In this document: positions 2 through 56,800 of the stretch, one piece after another
How positions within the stretch are numbered: position 1 is the stretch's first letter
Layout of the letters: each line of letters opens with the position of its first letter
IMG/VR virus record: IMGVR_UViG_3300038461_000101
Coordinates: 1 to 64,000 of that record
Length of the DNA: 64,000 bases
Origin: a virus
Strand: one strand, 5' to 3'
The notes under the pieces: generated by a model
Databases searched by the model: none
What the model saw: the letters and a program-made list of their open reading frames with translations, nothing else
Told to the model about the DNA's origin: nothing
Program-made: the position numbers and the translations under genes

Positions 2-511
2 GTAGGAGCAGTAACGATCATAATTCCATCCTTCAAGGCATCTGAAGCCCAGGCTCCGGCTGTTGGAGATCTAGCTACTTCAGTCATTGCAACTCAGCTT
101 GCCAAAGCCAATAATGTTACCCAGGTAATGAACTTGATGAGCAAGATTGGATTAAGAGAAGCATTTAATCATCTTGAAGCAGCCATCTATGCCCCCCACT
201 TCTTGCGCCCAAAGCACCAAGGTGACGATCCTTCTCCCAAAAAGATTGAAGATCTTATCAAGAAGGGTGCCTGTAATCCAATTGTGGTCTATCAATGTTC
301 TTCATGGGGACCTACCCGTGTCAAATTCGTGTGCTCGGTTACACCTGATGTGATGGTCGGCTTGGTAGTATCCCTTGATCCCAATGGCACAGATTGGATG
401 GTAACTGCCTTCCCTGGCTCAGTGGCATACTGGACTCCTGGCCTGTGGGATCCAATTACTGGCAATGGATTGACTGGCTGTACAAATATTGGAACGGTGG
501 TGCATCCATGA
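2..511 (+). CDS. Hypothetical protein, 5'-partial
   Basis: The reading frame is open from base 2 and ends at TGA 509-511, so the N-terminus lies outside the window; 169 residues are visible. The first visible residues are hydrophobic (VGAVTIII) and followed by an Ala-rich stretch, which could be the end of a signal or membrane segment. The C-terminal half is rich in Trp, Gly and Pro. I do not recognise the family. Its stop overlaps the next start by 4 bases (ATGA), so the two are probably translationally coupled. Confidence 0.6.
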   Translation, partial: VGAVTIIIPSFKASEAQAPAVGDLATSVIATQLAKANNVTQVMNLMSKIGLREAFNHLEAAIYAPHFLRPKHQGDDPSPKKIEDLIKKGACNPIVVYQCSSWGPTRVKFVCSVTPDVMVGLVVSLDPNGTDWMVTAFPGSVAYWTPGLWDPITGNGLTGCTNIGTVVHP

Positions 512-786
512 TTTACTATTTCGAGAAGATGGCAAAGACTGGTTTGGCTCATTGTCAGGTTTGCCATCAAGTGATTGAGAAAGATACTCCAAGGATGGGC
601 ATTGAGGGAACTTATGTACCTAAAGTATGGCCCTGTCATCAGCGTTGGGTCAAATGGTTCCATCTTGCTTGTTCTTATCAACCTATCCAGCATGTAATGC
701 GAGATGCTTTGAATGAAATGAAGATTGCTATTTGTGTATTCTTTACTCTCTTATTCTGGAAAGGAAAGGAGAACATCGAATTATGA
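508..786 (+). CDS. Small protein with PARP-type zinc finger
   Basis: A 92-aa protein. Residues 5-57 follow the PARP zinc-finger pattern: FEKMAKTG...C16-x2-C19 ... PRMGI ... W-F-H52-x2-C55. The Cys-Cys-His-Cys ligands, the KTG/KSG motif before the first Cys, the RM motif and the W-x-H-x-x-C end all fit zf-PARP. That finger recognises DNA nicks and breaks in eukaryotic PARP1 and DNA ligase III. The C-terminus (about residues 70-85) is hydrophobic. The ATG at 508 is chosen because it overlaps the previous stop and avoids a long overlap with the preceding gene. A DNA-nick-binding role is inference; no catalytic domain is attached. Confidence 0.7.
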   Translation: MIYYFEKMAKTGLAHCQVCHQVIEKDTPRMGIEGTYVPKVWPCHQRWVKWFHLACSYQPIQHVMRDALNEMKIAICVFFTLLFWKGKENIEL

Positions 787-1265
787 AGCTAATAACCATG
801 CGTATTGCAGATGTGCCTGATGCGGTGATGCAAGACGAAAAGCAGGTATTTGAGTTCAAGACTCCAGCCGATAAGGAACTGTTCTACCAAACCGTTGGCG
901 TGGATCCTTCCATGTTTATGAATGGCGACAATCGTCGCATTCCATGGGCGGCTTGGGACATCCTACGGCAGAAAGGCTGGTGGCACGATCATTCAGAGAA
1001 CCAATTCTTGATCTGGATGTATCCTGAAACCCAACTTGAAGAACTGGAACTTCGATGCCGACACATGGATTGGACTTACCAATACTCGGATGATCATCGT
1101 GTTTGGCAAGCTGGCGAATCTGCCATGGCAAAGATCCATAAGTTACTTGATGAGCTGGATAGTTTACCCGAAGCCCGAGTGATCTATTACCAGTACATGC
1201 CCGATTTCATGAAACCTAAGAAGGAGGAAAAACCTGATGAATCAACTGGTACCCCTACCGCCTGA
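783..1265 (+). CDS. Hypothetical acidic protein
   Basis: 160 aa. The start at ATG 783 follows a good SD (AAAGGAG) and overlaps the previous stop as ATGA. The product is acidic and Trp-rich, with a Lys/Glu-rich C-terminal tail (KPKKEEKPDE). No known domain is recognised. The gene belongs to a run of overlapping small genes of unknown function at the left end. Confidence 0.65.
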   Translation: MKLITMRIADVPDAVMQDEKQVFEFKTPADKELFYQTVGVDPSMFMNGDNRRIPWAAWDILRQKGWWHDHSENQFLIWMYPETQLEELELRCRHMDWTYQYSDDHRVWQAGESAMAKIHKLLDELDSLPEARVIYYQYMPDFMKPKKEEKPDESTGTPTA

Positions 1266-9041: not shown

Positions 9042-9510
9042 TCATGGAGAGAGCTTCCAGAACGATGAAGGAATTGATGAAGATGTTTGCAATGAAACTG
9101 CAGATGAAGTATTGGAGTTCATGGTTGAAGAAATGACCAAGATGCAAACCACTCCAGTCGATGAAGCTGCGATCATCGAACTCAACATAGAAGAGATTGC
9201 TGACCGGTTTGGTTGTGATGAAGATGAACTTCCAGAAGCATTTGTGACCCTGTTACGCAAGAAGATCACCGATGCTTTCAAGGCTGATTATGACGATGAG
9301 ATCAAACATGCCTTTGCAGAATGGCCGGTTGGAGAACTTGCCAACTTGTTTGGTAATATGACCACAAACAGATTTTGGGATTGTAATTGCGAGAAGGACT
9401 ATATCCACCCTGCTGAAGAGACAACTCTTCAATGCTTTGTTTGTGGTGCCTTGCGAGTAAATCAGCCCGACTCCATGATGCGTGAAGTTATCCGGGCGGA
9501 GTTACTCTAA
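9010..9510 (+). CDS. Acidic protein with C-terminal zinc ribbon
   Basis: 166 aa. The N-terminal two thirds are strongly acidic and helical (NDEGIDEDVCNETADEVLEF). The C-terminal part has CNC ... CFVCG, a likely zinc ribbon. ATG 9010 lacks a strong SD and is probably reached from the micro-ORF at 8976. An acidic body with a ribbon could be a DNA mimic or protein-binding factor, but this is speculative. Confidence 0.6.
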   Translation: MMEEISAIINNHGESFQNDEGIDEDVCNETADEVLEFMVEEMTKMQTTPVDEAAIIELNIEEIADRFGCDEDELPEAFVTLLRKKITDAFKADYDDEIKHAFAEWPVGELANLFGNMTTNRFWDCNCEKDYIHPAEETTLQCFVCGALRVNQPDSMMREVIRAELL

Positions 9511-9869
9511 TGCCAGTCTTCATGTTTCGTACTACCAGTGCTTTCAAATGGGCTACTTATGAACCTGATCTTGGGCTCCTGGTATGCTCAACTTGCAAGA
9601 ATACCTATGATCCAGTCAAGTTTCAGACACACCATAAGTGCCCCCATTGCTTGAGGATACGTGATTGGCAAAGACTTCCTTGGGAAGTTCGTGCCAAGAG
9701 GTATATCAAGACAGCTAGTTTCTGTCCCTATTGCAGATCCATGAATATTGAAGGAGTACCACACTTTGAAAGTGATTGTGATTGGGCTGAACGTGAAGTT
9801 AAATGCCCTGATTGCGGTCGCTCCTGGAAAGAAGAGTTCAGAATGGTAAGTATAGAGGAGATTCCATGA
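9510..9869 (+). CDS. Double zinc-ribbon protein
   Basis: 119 aa with at least four CxxC pairs: CSTC, CPHC, CPYC and CPDC, plus H/C residues between them, so at least two zinc ribbons. Such arrays usually bind nucleic acid or proteins. The start overlaps the previous stop (TAATG). No specific family is assigned. Confidence 0.7.
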   Translation: MPVFMFRTTSAFKWATYEPDLGLLVCSTCKNTYDPVKFQTHHKCPHCLRIRDWQRLPWEVRAKRYIKTASFCPYCRSMNIEGVPHFESDCDWAEREVKCPDCGRSWKEEFRMVSIEEIP

Positions 9870-12008: not shown

Positions 12009-12463
12009 TCTTCAATAAGATAGCCCAGGTGCCAGATGAGTTCTGTGAAGGTTGCAAACAAAAATGGCACAATAATTGCGCTGCATTCATGGCAGCTCAC
12101 AGCGATGAAGAATATGCTCAGAGAATTACGGGGGATCCTCTATGTATGAGTGCCAAGGCAACTGGAAAATACGATAATATCTTACTCTCTTTGAATGGTC
12201 GTATTTCAGGCCATTTACGATCGCACGTTGCCTATCTGGTTGAGTTCAGCAAGCCGGTCTATCTTCGGTGTTTCAAGGGACCGGCTATAGCAAGAGACAA
12301 AGCAAAGTTGGCTTTCTTCCAAGATGCCTTTGCCTTTACCTATTACAAGACACCCAACCGATCGCATGGCTATAACTTTGATGGCCTTTGGAATCTGGTT
12401 CAGAAGATCACAGATCCTGAAGGAGTGGTTATCTTTGATAAGAAGGAGTGGATCAAGAAATGA
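12005..12463 (+). CDS. Cysteine-containing hypothetical protein
   Basis: 152 aa, ATGA overlap upstream and ATGA overlap with the radical SAM gene downstream. The N-terminus has C-E-G-C plus H-x3-C (KWHNNC), a possible metal site. The tight coupling to the radical SAM gene suggests that it may be a partner or substrate-handling protein, but this is inference only. Confidence 0.55.
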   Translation: MIFNKIAQVPDEFCEGCKQKWHNNCAAFMAAHSDEEYAQRITGDPLCMSAKATGKYDNILLSLNGRISGHLRSHVAYLVEFSKPVYLRCFKGPAIARDKAKLAFFQDAFAFTYYKTPNRSHGYNFDGLWNLVQKITDPEGVVIFDKKEWIKK

Positions 12464-13392
12464 CGATAACAATCAAAGACTGCCAGGAAGATGGGATCTA
12501 CATCAATCTGGATCTCACCAAGAAGTGCAACTTTGAATGTGCTCATTGTGGTATGAGTGCTGGTCCTACTGTGCGCTCAGGCTACATGACCCATGAGGTG
12601 CTGCAGGAGGTGCGTAGGATGGTGGGCTGGTGCAATGAGCGAGAGATCAGGGTAACTCTCAACCTGATTGGTGGTGAACCTACTTTGAATTTGACTGAGT
12701 TCGCCCGGGTGCTGCGTGAACTAGACGACTTGGATGTTACTTTTGAAATGACCACCAATGGCTGGTGGATAGCCAGGAAGCACACTTTACTGCGCTTCAT
12801 GGATATTATCAGACCATATATCAAAGGTGATTGCTTTGATAATGGATTTTCAGTACGGATCTCTGACGATCAATATCATCGGTGGGAACGTCAGAAGCGT
12901 GGTGAGACTTACATGGAGAAAAGTCTGCTCGCGAATATTCATGACCTTTGGGATAACTTCTATGAGTACATCGAAGAAAATGATTACTATCGTCTTCCAG
13001 AACGCCCCCATGATGAATGTGGTTGGATCTATGTTGAAAAAGATTTTGATAAGCCTGTTGTTCCAATTGGAAGAGGAGCCGATTGCAATAGTCGGGCCGA
13101 TAAGTGCGATCACAATCACCACTTCAAGCTCACCTTTGAACCTCATGGTGAATTGACTGACATCTGCTGCAAGTTTTCAGTCTGTCGATTCGGCACAGTC
13201 AGTGATAACCCCCTGTATCTTTTGAACCTGGCTGACAAGTTTCTTAGGGAACGAAGTCCTGATTGTTGGAACTGCCTGGAGGCAGCTGAGGAGTGGAAGA
13301 AGGATCGTCTTGAGCAGGCTTGGCTGGAGGTGCAGACTGAGGTTCAGCTTGAACTTGACCAGCCTGATCCGCAGGAAGATCCAGATCTATAA
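12460..13392 (+). CDS. Radical SAM enzyme with extra C-terminal cysteines
   Basis: 310 aa. C23-x3-C27-x2-C30 (KKCNFECAHC) binds the 4Fe-4S cluster. GGEPTL at about residue 72 is the SAM-binding GGE motif, and a FEMTTNGWW strand follows. Between residues about 190 and 290 there are many further Cys (DCNSRADKC, DICCKFSVC, DCWNC), suggesting an auxiliary SPASM-like cluster region. Such proteins often modify peptides or act as maturases. ATG 12460 is preferred to GTG 12448 by SD spacing. The substrate is unknown. The last 149 bases overlap, antisense, the gene at 13244-13870. Confidence 0.88.
   Translation: MTITIKDCQEDGIYINLDLTKKCNFECAHCGMSAGPTVRSGYMTHEVLQEVRRMVGWCNEREIRVTLNLIGGEPTLNLTEFARVLRELDDLDVTFEMTTNGWWIARKHTLLRFMDIIRPYIKGDCFDNGFSVRISDDQYHRWERQKRGETYMEKSLLANIHDLWDNFYEYIEENDYYRLPERPHDECGWIYVEKDFDKPVVPIGRGADCNSRADKCDHNHHFKLTFEPHGELTDICCKFSVCRFGTVSDNPLYLLNLADKFLRERSPDCWNCLEAAEEWKKDRLEQAWLEVQTEVQLELDQPDPQEDPDL
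13061..13072. repeat. TTCCAATTGGAA palindrome, copy 2
   Basis: Exact copy inside the radical SAM gene, read as Pro-Ile-Gly in the coding frame. Confidence 0.75.
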
Positions 13393-23734: not shown

Positions 23735-24262
23735 ATGGTCAAAGTTGATCCCAAGAAAGTGAAAGTCAATCCGAACCAAACGATCGAAAGGTTATTGAGA
23801 ATTGCTCAAGACAATGGCATGACGGAAAAAGTATTGAAGGAAGAGATCTTGAAGTGTACCGGCAAGGCTGCCTTCAATGCAAAGAATTGGCAGAAGTATC
23901 TCCAGCTTATTTCCAATTGGAGATTCTTCCATCCAGCTCCTCGGATACCGTCTCCGCCTTGTCCAATTTGTGGAGCAAGTCAGGGTGTGGATAGTTCCCT
24001 GGCTGGTCTGTATAAGGCACATTCTCCATCCATGCGTGGTTTGCGTTGCAATGCCAACAAGCATCATTTCTTCATGATGATGGAAGTTGATCGGTTGGTA
24101 AAGATGAAAGGGATTACACTTGAGGAAGCAATTCAAAGAGTCAAAGAAACTGACGCACGGTTACAAAAATACCTTCAGGAGAGAGAGAGTATATGTACAA
24201 TCCTAGGCCCATGCAACGTAACATCTCCATCGACTTCTTTGCAAGGCGTACCCATTTCTTAG
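23735..24262 (+). CDS. Zinc-binding protein
   Basis: 175 aa. ATG 23735 has a perfect AAAGGAGG; the ATG at 23699 has none. A basic N-terminus is followed by a CPICG pair and a later C ... H (LRCNANKHHF), a likely zinc site, then a helix. The C-terminal 23 codons overlap the next gene. The SNW codons at 23911 carry a near-palindrome. Confidence 0.6.
   Translation: MVKVDPKKVKVNPNQTIERLLRIAQDNGMTEKVLKEEILKCTGKAAFNAKNWQKYLQLISNWRFFHPAPRIPSPPCPICGASQGVDSSLAGLYKAHSPSMRGLRCNANKHHFFMMMEVDRLVKMKGITLEEAIQRVKETDARLQKYLQERESICTILGPCNVTSPSTSLQGVPIS
23911..23922. repeat. Palindrome variant TTCCAATTGGAG
   Basis: One mismatch (last base) from the 12-bp palindrome, in coding sequence read as Ser-Asn-Trp. Confidence 0.4.
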
Positions 24263-25272
24263 ATCACATGGCCTCCGTCTGGATGGCATTACCACCCAGG
24301 ATGCGAGGCCGATTCTATATCCCTGAAGTGCTGCGTACTTATGCACTGAAGAAAGGTGTAGCTGAGCAAGGCATGTTTCTGCTTACCTGCAGGAATGAGC
24401 GACCAACCAGCTGCGTGACACCACCCTTTGGCCTGAACCCGATCGTTACATCTGCCTATGGCGACATGGAAATGGTCGGCTCCTACGATCGTAGGCCCCT
24501 GATCCTTATGGAGCATGGGGTTGGTCTGACTTTCAACAACCGGCAGGGCGTTACCAATCCTGGCTATGGTGGCGGGATGGGCAATCGTGCCTGGGTAAGT
24601 CTCTTCTTGTCCCCAAATGATTACATTGCAGCCAAGACAAGAGCAGCATTCCCTGACGCACCGATCACTGTAATTGGTACTCCGAAACTGGATCATTGGC
24701 TGGAAGCCTTCAAGCATCCTGTAAAGCGTCGGCCTGACAATCCAGTGATTTGTGTCTCGTTCCATTGGGATGGATCTGGTGTGGCTCCGGAAGCCGGAAA
24801 TGCTTGGGAACACTATCGCCGGTTCCTACCTGAACTGATGAAGCATTACAAAGTTATCGGCCATGGACATCCCAAATTCTTGGAACAACTGACCTATGCC
24901 TACACAAAATTGGGGATCCCTGTGGTCAATGACTTCGAAGATGTGATGCAGCAAGCTGATGTGTACGTGAATGATTGCAGTTCGACCATGTATGAGTTCT
25001 TAGTCACTGGTAAACCGGTCGTGGTAATGAATGCCCCTTGGTTTCGTAAGAATGTGTTTCATGGCATTCGTTTTTGGGATTACTCTGAGCCAGGGCCGGT
25101 CGCTGAAGGACCCGAGCAACTGATTGAAGCCATTGAGCGTGCTCTGGTCTATGACGAGCACGATATTCGAACCCGTAGAAGATACGTGAAAGATCTGTAT
25201 CCTAACTTAGGCTCAGCCGCCAAGACTGCAGCCCATGCCATCCGAGATTTCTGCTACGATCCCGAAGACTAA
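24193..25272 (+). CDS. CDP-glycerol transferase-like GT-B protein
   Basis: 359 aa with SD GGAGAG. The C-terminal half has the features of the CDP-glycerol:poly(glycerophosphate) transferase (TagB/TagF) family. A HGHPKF segment sits at about residue 221, then VNDCSSTMYEFLVTGKPVVV at about 255-275. The N-terminal half carries LMEHGVGLTF. In bacteria these enzymes polymerise teichoic acids. In phages related GT-B proteins may modify host envelope or phage DNA. Its direct junction with the DNA methyltransferase (8 bases) makes a role in DNA modification worth considering; this is inference. Confidence 0.75.
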   Translation: MYNPRPMQRNISIDFFARRTHFLDHMASVWMALPPRMRGRFYIPEVLRTYALKKGVAEQGMFLLTCRNERPTSCVTPPFGLNPIVTSAYGDMEMVGSYDRRPLILMEHGVGLTFNNRQGVTNPGYGGGMGNRAWVSLFLSPNDYIAAKTRAAFPDAPITVIGTPKLDHWLEAFKHPVKRRPDNPVICVSFHWDGSGVAPEAGNAWEHYRRFLPELMKHYKVIGHGHPKFLEQLTYAYTKLGIPVVNDFEDVMQQADVYVNDCSSTMYEFLVTGKPVVVMNAPWFRKNVFHGIRFWDYSEPGPVAEGPEQLIEAIERALVYDEHDIRTRRRYVKDLYPNLGSAAKTAAHAIRDFCYDPED

Positions 25273-34601: not shown

Positions 34602-34615
34602 TCAAGGAGGTTGTG

Positions 34616-35500
34616 ATGCCTAAAAAAGATGATAAGAACGAAGTGCTAGAAGGTCAGGTTGCTGATGTTCCGGGATCTGAACCACCGGAGCCCGAAGTTC
34701 CAACTGAAGCAAGTATCAAGCCAGACATGGTGAATGTAAAAAATAACGAGATCGTTCCCCATGGAGCAAATGATATTCCAATTCCCAAGGGTGCTACTCC
34801 TTTGGAGATGGTCAAGGTCGAAACCATTGGCACCTTGAAGCTAAGTGCACATGCTGAAGAAGTGCTCAATCGTAAGATGGAGCCGGAAATAGTGTGCATC
34901 CGACCAAACGATGGCATTCTCTATATGCCATGGACGTTCTATGCTTCCCGGCTAAACGAGGCTTTTGGTATTGGACATTGGGGCTTGATGCCACAGGGAT
35001 CCCCTCAGATAACCAAGCAAAGTCCCAAGCAGGATCTTGTGGTTTGGGGATTTGCTCTCTTTGTCGAAGGAATCTTCATCAGCTTTGCCATTGGCGAGAT
35101 GTCCTACAATACGACAAATGCTAAGATGTCCTATGCAGATGCTGCCGAAGGTGCCAAAAGTAATTCCCTGGCCCGTAACTGCAAGAACTTGGGTATGACA
35201 CTTGAGTTATGGGATAAGGAATGGTGCGAAGAATGGAAAAGGAAATTCGCAAGGAAAAATGGTGATGATTGGGTCAGGCAGATACCCAAGAAGCCAGTCG
35301 ATACTATAGCTACCGTGAAGGCATTATGGATTGCCCAGGCCATTGATAAGGGTATCCTGATTGACCGCAAGGATGAAGGTGGCTTCAAGATCCTGACTAC
35401 CTTATTGGGTGAGACCTACACCAAATTGAGTGATGAAAATCTGGCCGCCAATAAGAAGGCTGGCCTTGAGTTGATCGCCGGGTGGAAACCTTCGCTCTAG
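34616..35500 (+). CDS. Mgm101/Rad52-superfamily annealing protein
   Basis: 294 aa. ATG 34616 has AAGGAGG. The disordered acidic N-terminus (1-70) is followed by the Mgm101 core: IVCIRPNDGILYMPWTFYA, RLNEAFGIGHWGL, GEMSYNTTNAKMSYADAAEG and AKSNSLARNCKNLGMTLELW. This matches mitochondrial Mgm101 nearly motif by motif. The family anneals complementary ssDNA and is used by phages for recombination or end circularisation. Likely partners here are SSB (4067) and the PD-(D/E)XK nuclease (20331). Confidence 0.88.
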   Translation: MPKKDDKNEVLEGQVADVPGSEPPEPEVPTEASIKPDMVNVKNNEIVPHGANDIPIPKGATPLEMVKVETIGTLKLSAHAEEVLNRKMEPEIVCIRPNDGILYMPWTFYASRLNEAFGIGHWGLMPQGSPQITKQSPKQDLVVWGFALFVEGIFISFAIGEMSYNTTNAKMSYADAAEGAKSNSLARNCKNLGMTLELWDKEWCEEWKRKFARKNGDDWVRQIPKKPVDTIATVKALWIAQAIDKGILIDRKDEGGFKILTTLLGETYTKLSDENLAANKKAGLELIAGWKPSL

Positions 35501-35561: not shown

Positions 35562-35933
35562 ATGTTGGACCATGTATCTTTTGACGGTTTGGTTGTGGCC
35601 GGTTCTACCAGATGGTCGAAGCACAAGACAAACTTCACCGTGTCTGGTGATTATGCCGCTTGTCCAGAGATTGAGTCTCAGTCCCTGGCACAGTACAAGC
35701 GTTCTGAAACTGCAGTGCATGTGACAGTCTTTGTCTCTGAAAACGAGAAGATTGAATGTGACGCTTACATCGCTACAGTAGCCACTGACTGGATCCAGGA
35801 CAAGACCAAGGTTACTTTCTCGGTCTCTGGTACCAAGAAGTTCGAAGGATCTGCCAGCGTCCTGGGCACCTGGGATGAGAAGGAAGTGCCAGTAACTGTT
35901 ACGATCGAACCTCTTCAGAAGGCATTGGTATGA
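35562..35933 (+). CDS. Beta-rich hypothetical protein
   Basis: 123 aa with SD GAGGAG. Almost entirely beta (FTVSGDYAACP, AVHVTVFVSENEKIECDAYI, KVTFSVSGTKKFEGSASV), like a small beta-sandwich. It ends in ATGA overlap with the SPL-type radical SAM gene and may be its partner. Confidence 0.6.
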   Translation: MLDHVSFDGLVVAGSTRWSKHKTNFTVSGDYAACPEIESQSLAQYKRSETAVHVTVFVSENEKIECDAYIATVATDWIQDKTKVTFSVSGTKKFEGSASVLGTWDEKEVPVTVTIEPLQKALV

Positions 35934-36721
35934 GCTACGGTCTGATCTATGAGCCTCGGGGTGCCGCCCGGGAATATGCTCAGCTGGCCTGTAATGTCTA
36001 CCATGGTTGCGAACATGGGTGCCGATATTGTTTCGGCCCCAATGTTCTGCGCCAGGAGAAAACCACATTCCACGAACAGGCTGGAGAACGTCCCAACTTC
36101 CTTGTGCAATTGAAGAAGGATGCTGCAAGGTTACGCGATCAAGGTGTGAAGGGTCAGGTGCATCTTTGCTTTACCACGGATCCTTACCAGCCAATGGATG
36201 TGAAGCTCGGAATTACTCGAAGCACGATTGAAGTTCTCCATGCAAATGGTTTCAGTGTAGCCATCTTGACCAAGGGAGGTAGTAGATCCCTGAAGGACAT
36301 TGATTTGTTTGGCCCCACTGATGCCATGGCAGCCACGATTACCTATGCTAGGGATGAGGACAGTCTGCGCGAAGAACCCAATGCTGCTCTCCCACAGGAT
36401 CGTCTGGATGCTCTGAAGATATTCCATAATGCCCATGTTCCCACATGGATCTCCTGTGAACCAGTCCTGGACCCCAAGCAGACCTTGTATTGCATTGAAC
36501 TGATGCACTATTGGGTGGACCATGTGAAGGTTGGAAAACTCAACCATGATCCCAAGCGGGAAGCCACGATTGACTGGTACAAGTTTGCCAAGAATGCAGT
36601 GAAATTACTGGAACGCCTGGGCTATAAGCGCATTCTGGATCCGGATGATGCAGTCAGGGCCACCAATGATAACCGAACTTTCTATGTGAAGTCCGGGCTT
36701 GTCAAATTTCTGGAGGCTTAG
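35930..36721 (+). CDS. SPL-like radical SAM protein
   Basis: 263 aa. C27-x3-C31-x2-C34 (GCEHGCRYC) binds the 4Fe-4S cluster. HLCFTTDPYQPMD, VAILTKGGSRSL, WISCEPVLDPKQ and HVKVGKLNH are the conserved segments of the spore-photoproduct-lyase/SplB-like (Rv2578c-type) radical SAM family. Members repair DNA photoproducts or have unknown substrates. Here the gene sits with DNA recombination genes, which fits a DNA-repair role, but the catalytic specificity cannot be read from sequence. Confidence 0.87.
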   Translation: MSYGLIYEPRGAAREYAQLACNVYHGCEHGCRYCFGPNVLRQEKTTFHEQAGERPNFLVQLKKDAARLRDQGVKGQVHLCFTTDPYQPMDVKLGITRSTIEVLHANGFSVAILTKGGSRSLKDIDLFGPTDAMAATITYARDEDSLREEPNAALPQDRLDALKIFHNAHVPTWISCEPVLDPKQTLYCIELMHYWVDHVKVGKLNHDPKREATIDWYKFAKNAVKLLERLGYKRILDPDDAVRATNDNRTFYVKSGLVKFLEA

Positions 36722-53803: not shown

Positions 53804-56800
53804 TCAATTGTTTAGGTCCTGGGCAACGGTTCGAATAATGAAGTCTCGAATCTTTTCATTGCCGATGAAGATCTGAATGACCTGTGGTGTATTCCCGCCA
53901 CCAGTTCCCCTTGCAAGAGATAGGGAATGGTTCAGGGAAGAACCCTTGAGCTGGCTATTGGGGGTGACATTGAAACCACCACCAGGAAGGGCCGTAACCA
54001 ATTCTTCATAGCCAGTTGGAATACCAGAGAGACTATCACCAACAATGGCTGAGCCACCAGGTCTTACTGAACCACCAGCAGCGCATTTGACAGAGTTATG
54101 GGTGAGCATTTTCTCTGCATAATATTCATGCTGGCCGCCAACAACCATGGTGTAGGTTGGAACTTCAACTTCTGTATAGGACATGTCGATGATAGATTCA
54201 TAACCTTCTTCGAAGGTAAGGATCTCATCTCCAATTTCCAGACCACCAATAATATCCAGACCATAATAGGATTTTTCAGAAGCCAGGGGATCAATGGATT
54301 TCCAACCGTGGCGAGTATACATTGGGTGATCGTTGGTTAGATTGAGAATCTGACCACTGGCAAACTTGATAGTCCAAATACCTTCTCGGATCGGTTGGAT
54401 AAGGCCATGTACTTCAACACCTTCCTTTTCGAAGTGATCATTCTTTCCCATGACTATATCGCCAAGTTTCACATCTTCAATGGCCCTTTCGGAGCCATCA
54501 CCCATCAGGATCTTGGTACCAGCCAGAAAGCAGCACAATCTTCCTTCATCGGTTGGAATAGGAAGACCAAGAGCTTTCATGATGTCTTTCCAGGCTTGCA
54601 CTAATCCAGCGTCAAGAAGAGCTACTGCTCCAGCAGCCTTGGCAGCATCAGTTGAGAGATCAAGTTCAGTTGTGGACAGATCCTTTTGGTCCTTGGCAGC
54701 CTGAGCTGCAATACCAGCGGACTCTGTAGCAAGTTTCTGCTGTTCAACGAAGTTGGCCCGGGCAAGCTTGATGGATTGCAGTTCCAGATCCATCTGTACT
54801 GCATAGAACTCTTTGGCCTTATCTAACTGTTGCTGTTGAAGTTGCTTGGTCTCTTCGAACTGTTTGATCTGCAGTTTGTATTGTGCTTCCTGGAGAGCCC
54901 ACTGTTGTTTTTGATAGCCAAACTCAGTCTGACGTTGACTGGTTTGCATGTTGTATTCAGTGATGTTCTCTTTCTGCTGCATTTCTCCGAGTCGACGTTC
55001 ACGGCCAGAAGTGAAACGAGCTTGTTCTTTGTACATAGTCTGGCTGAAGCCAAATTGCTGAGCAGCCATAGCCGTATTGAAACCAAACTCTTCGGTTCCT
55101 TGTGCACGACCAAGAGCCATTCCTTGGGCCTGTAACCCCATGGATTGATAGAACTGACTGGACTGCAGGTTGATTTGTTTCTGCTGCATTCCAAAGCCGA
55201 ATTGGGTTTGTGCAATTCCAAGAGCACGCTGAGCATCTTCAATACCCCATTGTCCACCACCCTGGGAAGTGAAACTACCAGTACCGGGAATACTCCAGGA
55301 AACCTTACCAGTATTGAGACCGAAATTGCCACCGGTTTGCGGATTGACCAAACCAGCATAGTTCTGTAATCCCACTCCTGTAGTAAAGGCAAGATTAGCT
55401 GCAATACCTTGTTGCTGAACTCCAACTCCAGCCATGGCAAGTTCATAATTCTTGGCAATCGCAGTCTGTTGTACTTTGATGGATCCACCGGCAGCAGCGG
55501 CGGCCATGTAGGGATTATTTTCCCAACCAGCTCCGAAAATCTTTCCAGCCATTTCACTGGAACTTGGACCACCAAGAATACCCAAACTAGATGTTCCATA
55601 GGCCATACCAGTAAGTTGGCCGCCTGGAGTTACATCAGTTCTGGCAAGATTATAGGCAGGCATGGTTCCACCACCCATAAGAGGTAGGGGTGCCATCTTG
55701 TTGTAATTGATGCCATACTTGGCAGCAGCCACACCAAATCCAAGTGGGTTCTTCTGAGAGATCATCTCCCACATGGTATAGTCCTGGAAAGGAATAGTAT
55801 ATCCAGTGGGAGCTACATCCTGAACCCTTTTGATTGCTTCAGGACCAGCTAGGGGCGCAGTAGGAGCAACGGCTGGAGGAGTAATCCCAATATCATTATT
55901 GTTGAGAGCATTGATGAGATTGTCTCTCGTTGAAGGTTGAGGTGAAAGACTACTTGGGACCGCAGTTGCTCTTTCTCCTCCAATGTTTGCAAATTTCAAT
56001 ACATGATTTACTACATCCATAATAGATTTAGGTATTGGATTCTTGGAGAAGTAGTCTTTTTCAGATATGCCTGGACTTACTGAAGGCTTATTGCCTTGAG
56101 CAGCTTTGGCCGCCAGATCTGACTTGAGTTTTTGAAGATCGACCGAAGTGTTTCCAAGAGTGGCAGCAGTTTTTGTAATGGTCAATGGAGGGGTGGATAA
56201 TGTAGTAGCAGGACTACCATTGATAGACTCATGACCACTTGTAGTAGTTGGAGGTCCAAAAGCAGCAGCGATTTTAGCAACCATTTCAGCATCACCCGCT
56301 GTAGCTGCCTGCATACCCATGGTATTGGCGAGATTATCTCGGCGTGCTTCAAGACTAGCATAGGAATTGGCCTGATTTTGCATTACTTGAGCAGCACCAA
56401 TTGTCTGCTGCATAGGTGCAAGATCAAGAGGATTGATACCTGTAGGAATGCCAAGCATTGTCTGAGCAGTAAATTTCTGAGAAGCTGCCTGATAATATTG
56501 AGTTGTTGTCTGATCCAGACCACCCCATGCCTGAGCCCAGGTGTTCATTTGTGTCATTTGGGCCTGAGAAGGAGTCCCTGAAGTAGCCAATCGCCCCATC
56601 TCGGACCATCGCAGACTTGGCATATTTCCAAGAGTAGCAGCACCTGCAGCGAACAGTTTCTGTTCTTGCATACTCATTGGAACTTTCTCATTGTTGAGTT
56701 GATTGGCTACGATCGTAGCGGCCAGGCTTGGTTGATTTCTGGTACCAGTGATCTGTGCTTGAGGATAACCAAGACCATAGAGAAGGTTCTGGTAAGCTCC

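Follow-up and report, generated by a model that had tools for sequence, protein, structure and literature searches.

The window (the whole stretch of DNA that was analysed) covered positions 1-64000 of a virus record 88,723 bases in length. The ORF at 508..786 on the plus strand (stop codon included) started with ATG, stopped with TGA and encoded a putative zf-PARP protein of 92 aa. The original prediction had described the finger as a whole 92-aa protein, and the frame was indeed complete. An upstream ORF (2..511, plus strand), truncated by the start of the record, and a downstream ORF (783..1265, plus strand), 160 aa long when counted from its ATG at 783, each shared a 4-nt ATGA overlap with the finger gene, which lay within a run of co-directional small ORFs. 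With these overlaps on both sides and the co-directional run, ORF 508-786 looks like a real gene. The upstream ORF had no Pfam or PHROG family match. The downstream ORF matched phrog_16661, a family of unknown function (E 1.3e-4), gave a weak Pfam match below the cut-off (E 0.088) and had no match in IMG/VR. Pfam and PHROG searches of the ORFs on either side, extending to 2.8 kb, found no recognised repair domain.

The record encoded an SPP1-type portal (E 1.3e-9) and a protein with similarity to terminase large subunits (E 8.3e-5), by which it is a tailed phage, in line with the finger having been called phage-encoded. A protein of 3466 aa was taken for the tape measure, judged from its size and place. 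SSB, a DnaB-like helicase (DnaB_C), a C5 cytosine methylase and a DnaC-like loader were also encoded in the record. A Mgm101-type (mitochondrial genome maintenance) annealing protein was located at 34613-35500 on the plus strand (E 5e-33). Other genes of the plus strand encoded two radical SAM proteins (12448-13392 and 35930-36721), a CDP-glycerol glycerophosphotransferase-like protein (24193-25272) and a 119-aa protein (9510-9869) with several CxxC pairs and nine weak Pfam matches, mainly zinc ribbons, all below the cut-off. The giant tape-measure-like protein contained, close to its C terminus, a putative Hint segment that resembles an intein and is roughly 146 aa long (54095-54532, minus strand). 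This segment began with CFLAGTKI, terminated with HN, after which S came next, and matched Pfam Hom_end_hint above the cut-off (E 4.8e-8). Outside the window, a run of ORFs at 74819-78355 of the record (minus strand) resembled glycosyltransferases and methyltransferases by eye. INPHARED searches with the first 25 kb of the phage (megablast) and with a 2398-aa part of the tape-measure-like protein (tblastn) found nothing similar.

The Pfam match to the zf-PARP domain spanned residues 8-68 (529..711, plus strand). The zinc ligands C16, C19, H52 and C55 formed the C-x2-C-x32-H-x2-C arrangement exactly as originally described, with the first pair, C16-x2-C19, at 553..564 and the second pair, W50-x-H52-x2-C55, at 655..672, both on the plus strand and both aligning with PARP1 Zn1 and Zn2. 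The KTG, RM and W-x-H-x-x-C context that had been reported was likewise present as K10-T11-G12, R29-M30 (592..597, plus strand) and W50-F-H52-L-A-C55, within the longer strings AKTGxAxC, IxKDxxRM and WxHxxC. Alignment showed that R29, I23, K25 and A9-K10 were common to the phage finger and both PARP1 fingers. R29 corresponds to PARP1 R34, and its position was invariant in a 94-row alignment whose rows had been selected for Arg there. Leu13 (544..546, plus strand) was aligned with R18, the phosphate-grip arginine of PARP1 Zn1. The loop of residues 35-49 contained Y36, V40, W41 and W47 and differed in length from the PARP1 Zn1 loop that bears the base-stacking F44. Residues 1-56 had a net charge of +3, and hydropathy marked a short hydrophobic stretch, IAICVFFTLLFW, at residues 73-84 (724..759, plus strand).

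A search against zf-PARP had been named as a check of the PARP-type assignment. The protein matched zf-PARP (PF00645) with an E value of 1.7e-7, and Pfam offered no other family at E up to 10; the score of 32.4 bits was under the curated gathering cut-off of 39.3, a conservative threshold for automatic assignment. Among the 24 zf-PARP matches listed for genomes from the same phylum as a Myxococcales seed genome, 11 were also below this cut-off, and in nine of these cases the match was the second of two tandem fingers. Searching the PDB with phmmer at E up to 10 produced 12 sequences, namely 10 of PARP1 (best E 4.2e-4), one DNA ligase III (E 0.19) and one unrelated cytochrome c3 (E 0.036). Used as a profile, the 94-row alignment found 15 distinct PDB sequences at E up to 0.01, of which 14 were PARP and one was DNA ligase III. 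This alignment consisted of the window protein and 93 of 142 non-redundant prokaryotic fragments (156 before redundancy removal), all selected for the full motif, which accounts for the invariance of the ligands in it.

An HMM from the 93 bacterial and archaeal finger fragments, built after removing the window row from the alignment in which it had originally been included, scored the phage protein at 40.1 bits. The same HMM gave a best score of 10.0 bits with 2000 free shuffles (1847 reported), 17.3 bits with 2000 shuffles in which C, H and W were kept fixed, and 6.0 bits with 131 further ORFs from the phage record taken longest-first (79 reported). No match to the finger protein was found in PHROGs (E up to 1), NCBIfam (E up to 10) or PADLOC (E up to 1). 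A Pfam search of the phage record (E up to 0.001) found no other finger of this type, and zf-PARP alone was found in the 92-aa protein, with no ADP-ribosyltransferase domain. On criteria other than the Pfam cut-off, the protein is judged a genuine, divergent zf-PARP member, and its membership of the family is regarded as very probable.

The AlphaFold model made with the 94-row alignment had a mean pLDDT of 79.2, with values of 90-98 in the first five ten-residue blocks and of at most 53 beyond residue 70. The hydrophobic stretch was modelled poorly, the block of residues 71-80 averaging 53 and residues 80-92 falling below 50. In a Foldseek search of this model against the PDB, rows 1-28 were all PARP or ligase III fingers, with a best E value of 1.5e-3 at a probability of 1.00 and no match at E 0.001 or better. 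Structural comparison gave a best Z of 7.7 (rmsd 4.1, 63 aligned residues), and a Z below 8 may reflect merely a common arrangement; weaker matches included a C1 domain (Z 5.7) and RING domains (Z up to 4.9). A single-sequence AlphaFold control produced a low-confidence helical model with a mean pLDDT of 54, so the fold result leans on the supplied alignment. Neither outcome named as refuting the original prediction, a missing zf-PARP match or a different fold, was seen; the reservations are the sub-cut-off Pfam score and the single-sequence model, which was uninformative. The predicted PARP-finger fold is a homology-supported prediction rather than independent proof. Sequence searches and the alignment-guided prediction agree on a PARP-type finger, as had been proposed.

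The finger had also been called eukaryotic, a description that is too narrow. Among the matches listed, zf-PARP was carried by Myxococcales (Myxococcota), Planctomycetota, Acidobacteria, Melainabacteria/Obscuribacterales and others, and by Asgard archaea (Heimdall-, Loki-, Thor- and Hodarchaeota). Genome contigs were scanned with a DNA pattern that covered the first part of the finger, up to about its half, and fixed much of the motif, including Arg or Ser before the first Cys; at least 118 stretches were returned. These held at least 116 ORFs, of which at least 108 had the full CCHC pattern (eight did not) and at least 48 had the pattern twice. The full-motif prokaryotic ORFs included at least 11 shorter than 177 aa (64-176 aa), some truncated by the ends of their loci, and further short prokaryotic fingers may exist. 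The Pfam zf-PARP model matched six of seven chosen genomes and none of 14 control genomes. With the seed included, it matched 11 of 146 genomes in the phylum of the Myxococcales genome and 10 of 149 in that of the Planctomycetes genome; in the phylum of the Anaerolineae genome the seed was the only match among 151 genomes. Every match drawn with the Pfam model lay in an open frame of 177 aa or longer, and several of these frames held a second finger. The bacterial and Asgard-archaeal loci L020-L137 and L139-L185 held proteins with one or two PARP-type fingers, the pairs often about 270 bp apart. A search of the genome contigs with a 3-row alignment yielded 67 candidates and confirmed none although the family is present in those contigs, so confirmation was strict.

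The phage protein was compared with 158 fingers (the 156 fragments and two PARP1 stretches). The nearest was that of L084, a Melainabacteria MAG, with 35% identity over 69 aa in an alignment that extended beyond the last ligand to residue 75. The five best bacterial genomes matched at E 2.1e-6 to 6.7e-4, and PARP1 was outside the 20 best fingers. Since the closest fingers were bacterial and PARP1 ranked outside the 20 best, the comparison suggests, though it does not prove, that the phage finger derived from a bacterial branch of the zf-PARP family.

Searches for relatives in phages and plasmids returned little. With the phage finger as tblastn query, seven weak records were found in INPHARED (best E 0.3, none covering 80%) and four in PLSDB (best E 0.2), and the best of the latter, a Rhizobium record, looked phosphoesterase-like when its translation was read by eye and had no such finger. 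Of two prokaryotic fingers searched against INPHARED, one gave two Campylobacter phage records at E 7 and the other none. One IMG/VR match was discarded because it was limited to a short segment around MRDALNEM, lay in an unrelated ORF and came from a 6.2-kb record without a zf-PARP match. None of 15 stretches from an IMG/VR pattern scan was a PARP finger by eye after translation, and none of the 52 and 79 candidate stretches from further scans was confirmed. Another pattern scan returned no stretch though the window fits the pattern, the window's own and near records possibly having been excluded. These IMG/VR scans do not prove that viral relatives are absent.

The BFVD structural search showed PARP-type or zf-PARP names in medusaviruses (A0A3T1CWW9, 224 aa), an ascovirus (A0A2Z5UZP5, 111 aa) and an uncultured Caudovirales phage (A0A6J5LY28, 104 aa), the last named 'PARP-type domain-containing protein', and uncharacterised phage proteins scored similarly to the named ones. 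A0A8S5SH99 was a further phage protein in this search. As to the statement that the finger is rarely seen in phages, our scans found no other, but a phage protein already bears the PARP-type name, and the statement has to be tempered. According to the accessible part of a review, PARP enzymes occur in four dsDNA viruses, two of them phages, and 28 PARP homologues occur across 27 bacterial species; that part makes no mention of stand-alone fingers (PMC4245714). In a literature search of mostly open-access coverage, no paper was found that linked PARP-type zinc finger or zf-PARP with phage or bacterial.

The original prediction further presented the finger as sensing DNA nicks. R18 and R122 of PARP1 make up the phosphate grip, which is described in the accessible text of one paper as key to DNA binding (PMC8150716). 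At the R18 position, 42 of 43 prokaryotic fingers had Arg and one had Lys, and the phage finger had Leu. The 43 fingers came from loci drawn with the Pfam model and filtered for Arg near the R29 position; one of 44 candidates was dropped and identical fingers were counted once, and some of the loci came from seed genomes picked via the genome-contig pattern scan or share its contigs. By alignment, the phage finger lacks one main residue of nick sensing, and with Leu13 in place of the grip arginine nick sensing is unproven. Of all its features, the replacement of the grip residue is of most interest.

The open frame and the family relationship are established, and the function has to be weighed between readings. 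Tentatively, with confidence close to evenly balanced, we favour a stand-alone zf-PARP finger, probably of bacterial-branch origin, whose likeliest job would be that of a DNA-break-binding accessory; DNA-break binding in itself is held with slightly less than even confidence. The protein would be expressed together with the neighbouring small genes, and zinc held by C16, C19, H52 and C55 would build a compact finger, with a helix after it. Acting as a small DNA-binding accessory, it may recognise DNA discontinuities (nicks, ends or gaps) during phage replication and recombination, alongside SSB, the Mgm101-type annealing protein, DnaB and the DnaC-like loader. This job was rated likeliest because the finger retains further conserved positions and genes for recombination and annealing occur in the phage. 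Leu13 counts against a simple copy of the PARP1 mechanism, and with the grip arginine replaced DNA binding would need R29 together with the further basic residues K10, K25, K39, R46 and K49 and the aromatic loop that precedes the WxHxxC motif, or else a partner. The sub-cut-off Pfam score, the reliance of the fold result on the alignment, the longer frames of the Pfam-model matches and the flanking ORFs free of recognised repair domains also weigh against the favoured reading.

A close rival, considered a serious contender and nearly as likely as the DNA-break-binding accessory, holds that the fold and ancestry are the same and that the finger was repurposed as a small protein-binding zinc module without DNA-break binding, for example for a host or phage replication protein. 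Leu13 at a position where all 43 prokaryotic fingers have Arg or Lys, the importance of the R18/R122 grip in the accessible account (PMC8150716), the hydrophobic C-terminal stretch and the presence of a single short protein, as against Pfam-model matches in frames of at least 177 aa, all point this way. The sharing of R29, I23, K25 and A9-K10 with both PARP1 fingers and the net charge of +3 over residues 1-56 speak against this rival, as does the fact that no partner was identified. Convergence, in which an unrelated treble-clef or zinc-ribbon protein came to resemble zf-PARP, is quite improbable. The sub-cut-off Pfam score, the C1 and RING domains among the weaker structural matches (Z up to 5.7) and the CxxC pairs of other small phage ORFs would fit it, but it is largely refuted by a signal that survived the C/H/W-fixed shuffles (40.1 against at most 17.3 bits) and that covers the non-ligand residues A9, K10, I23, K25 and R29. 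That ORF 508-786 is not a real gene, as the lack of a whole-protein homologue in the IMG/VR and INPHARED collections searched might suggest, is hardly credible, given that the domain match keeps all the ligands, that the adjoining ORFs on both sides overlap it by 4 nt and that it sits in a co-directional gene run.

Beyond these readings, it is conceivable, though rather unlikely, that a single-finger phage branch of zf-PARP gave up the grip arginine and turned a DNA-break sensor into another phage tool, for protein binding or for recognition of another DNA structure. PARP-type fingers are best known as components of eukaryotic repair enzymes. The phage protein is a divergent single-finger member of a known family, and its novelty is modest because the family is wider than eukaryotes and a named phage precedent exists. 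A natural 92-aa stand-alone finger and its prokaryotic relatives would offer small models of what a single finger is capable of and of the origin of the family, and a copy that keeps the motif with a changed grip arginine tests how much DNA-break recognition needs that residue.

Compared with known systems, the phage finger resembles PARP1 Zn1 and Zn2 in its CCHC ligands, the C-x2-C and WxHxxC motifs, the AK[ST] start, the IxK and R positions and, as modelled, the predicted fold. It differs from PARP1 in the spacing between the ligand pairs (x32 against x28 in Zn1), in L13 against R18, and in being one finger alone in 92 aa without a PARP catalytic domain. The zinc finger of DNA ligase III belongs to the same family by sequence and fold; that finger is part of a ligase, whereas the phage finger stands alone. 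The viral BFVD proteins have a similar predicted fold, two of them at near-equal length, and, compared by name and fold, are weak matches (E 1.2e-3 to 2.5e-2, 17-32% identity). The closest by sequence among the 158 fingers compared are those of bacterial zf-PARP proteins, for example from Melainabacteria (L084), Obscuribacterales (L090) and two proteobacterial MAGs (L125 and L083). The frames in the five best bacterial genomes are at least 183 aa long, against 92 aa in the phage, and the bacterial fingers have Arg or Lys at the position of phage Leu13.
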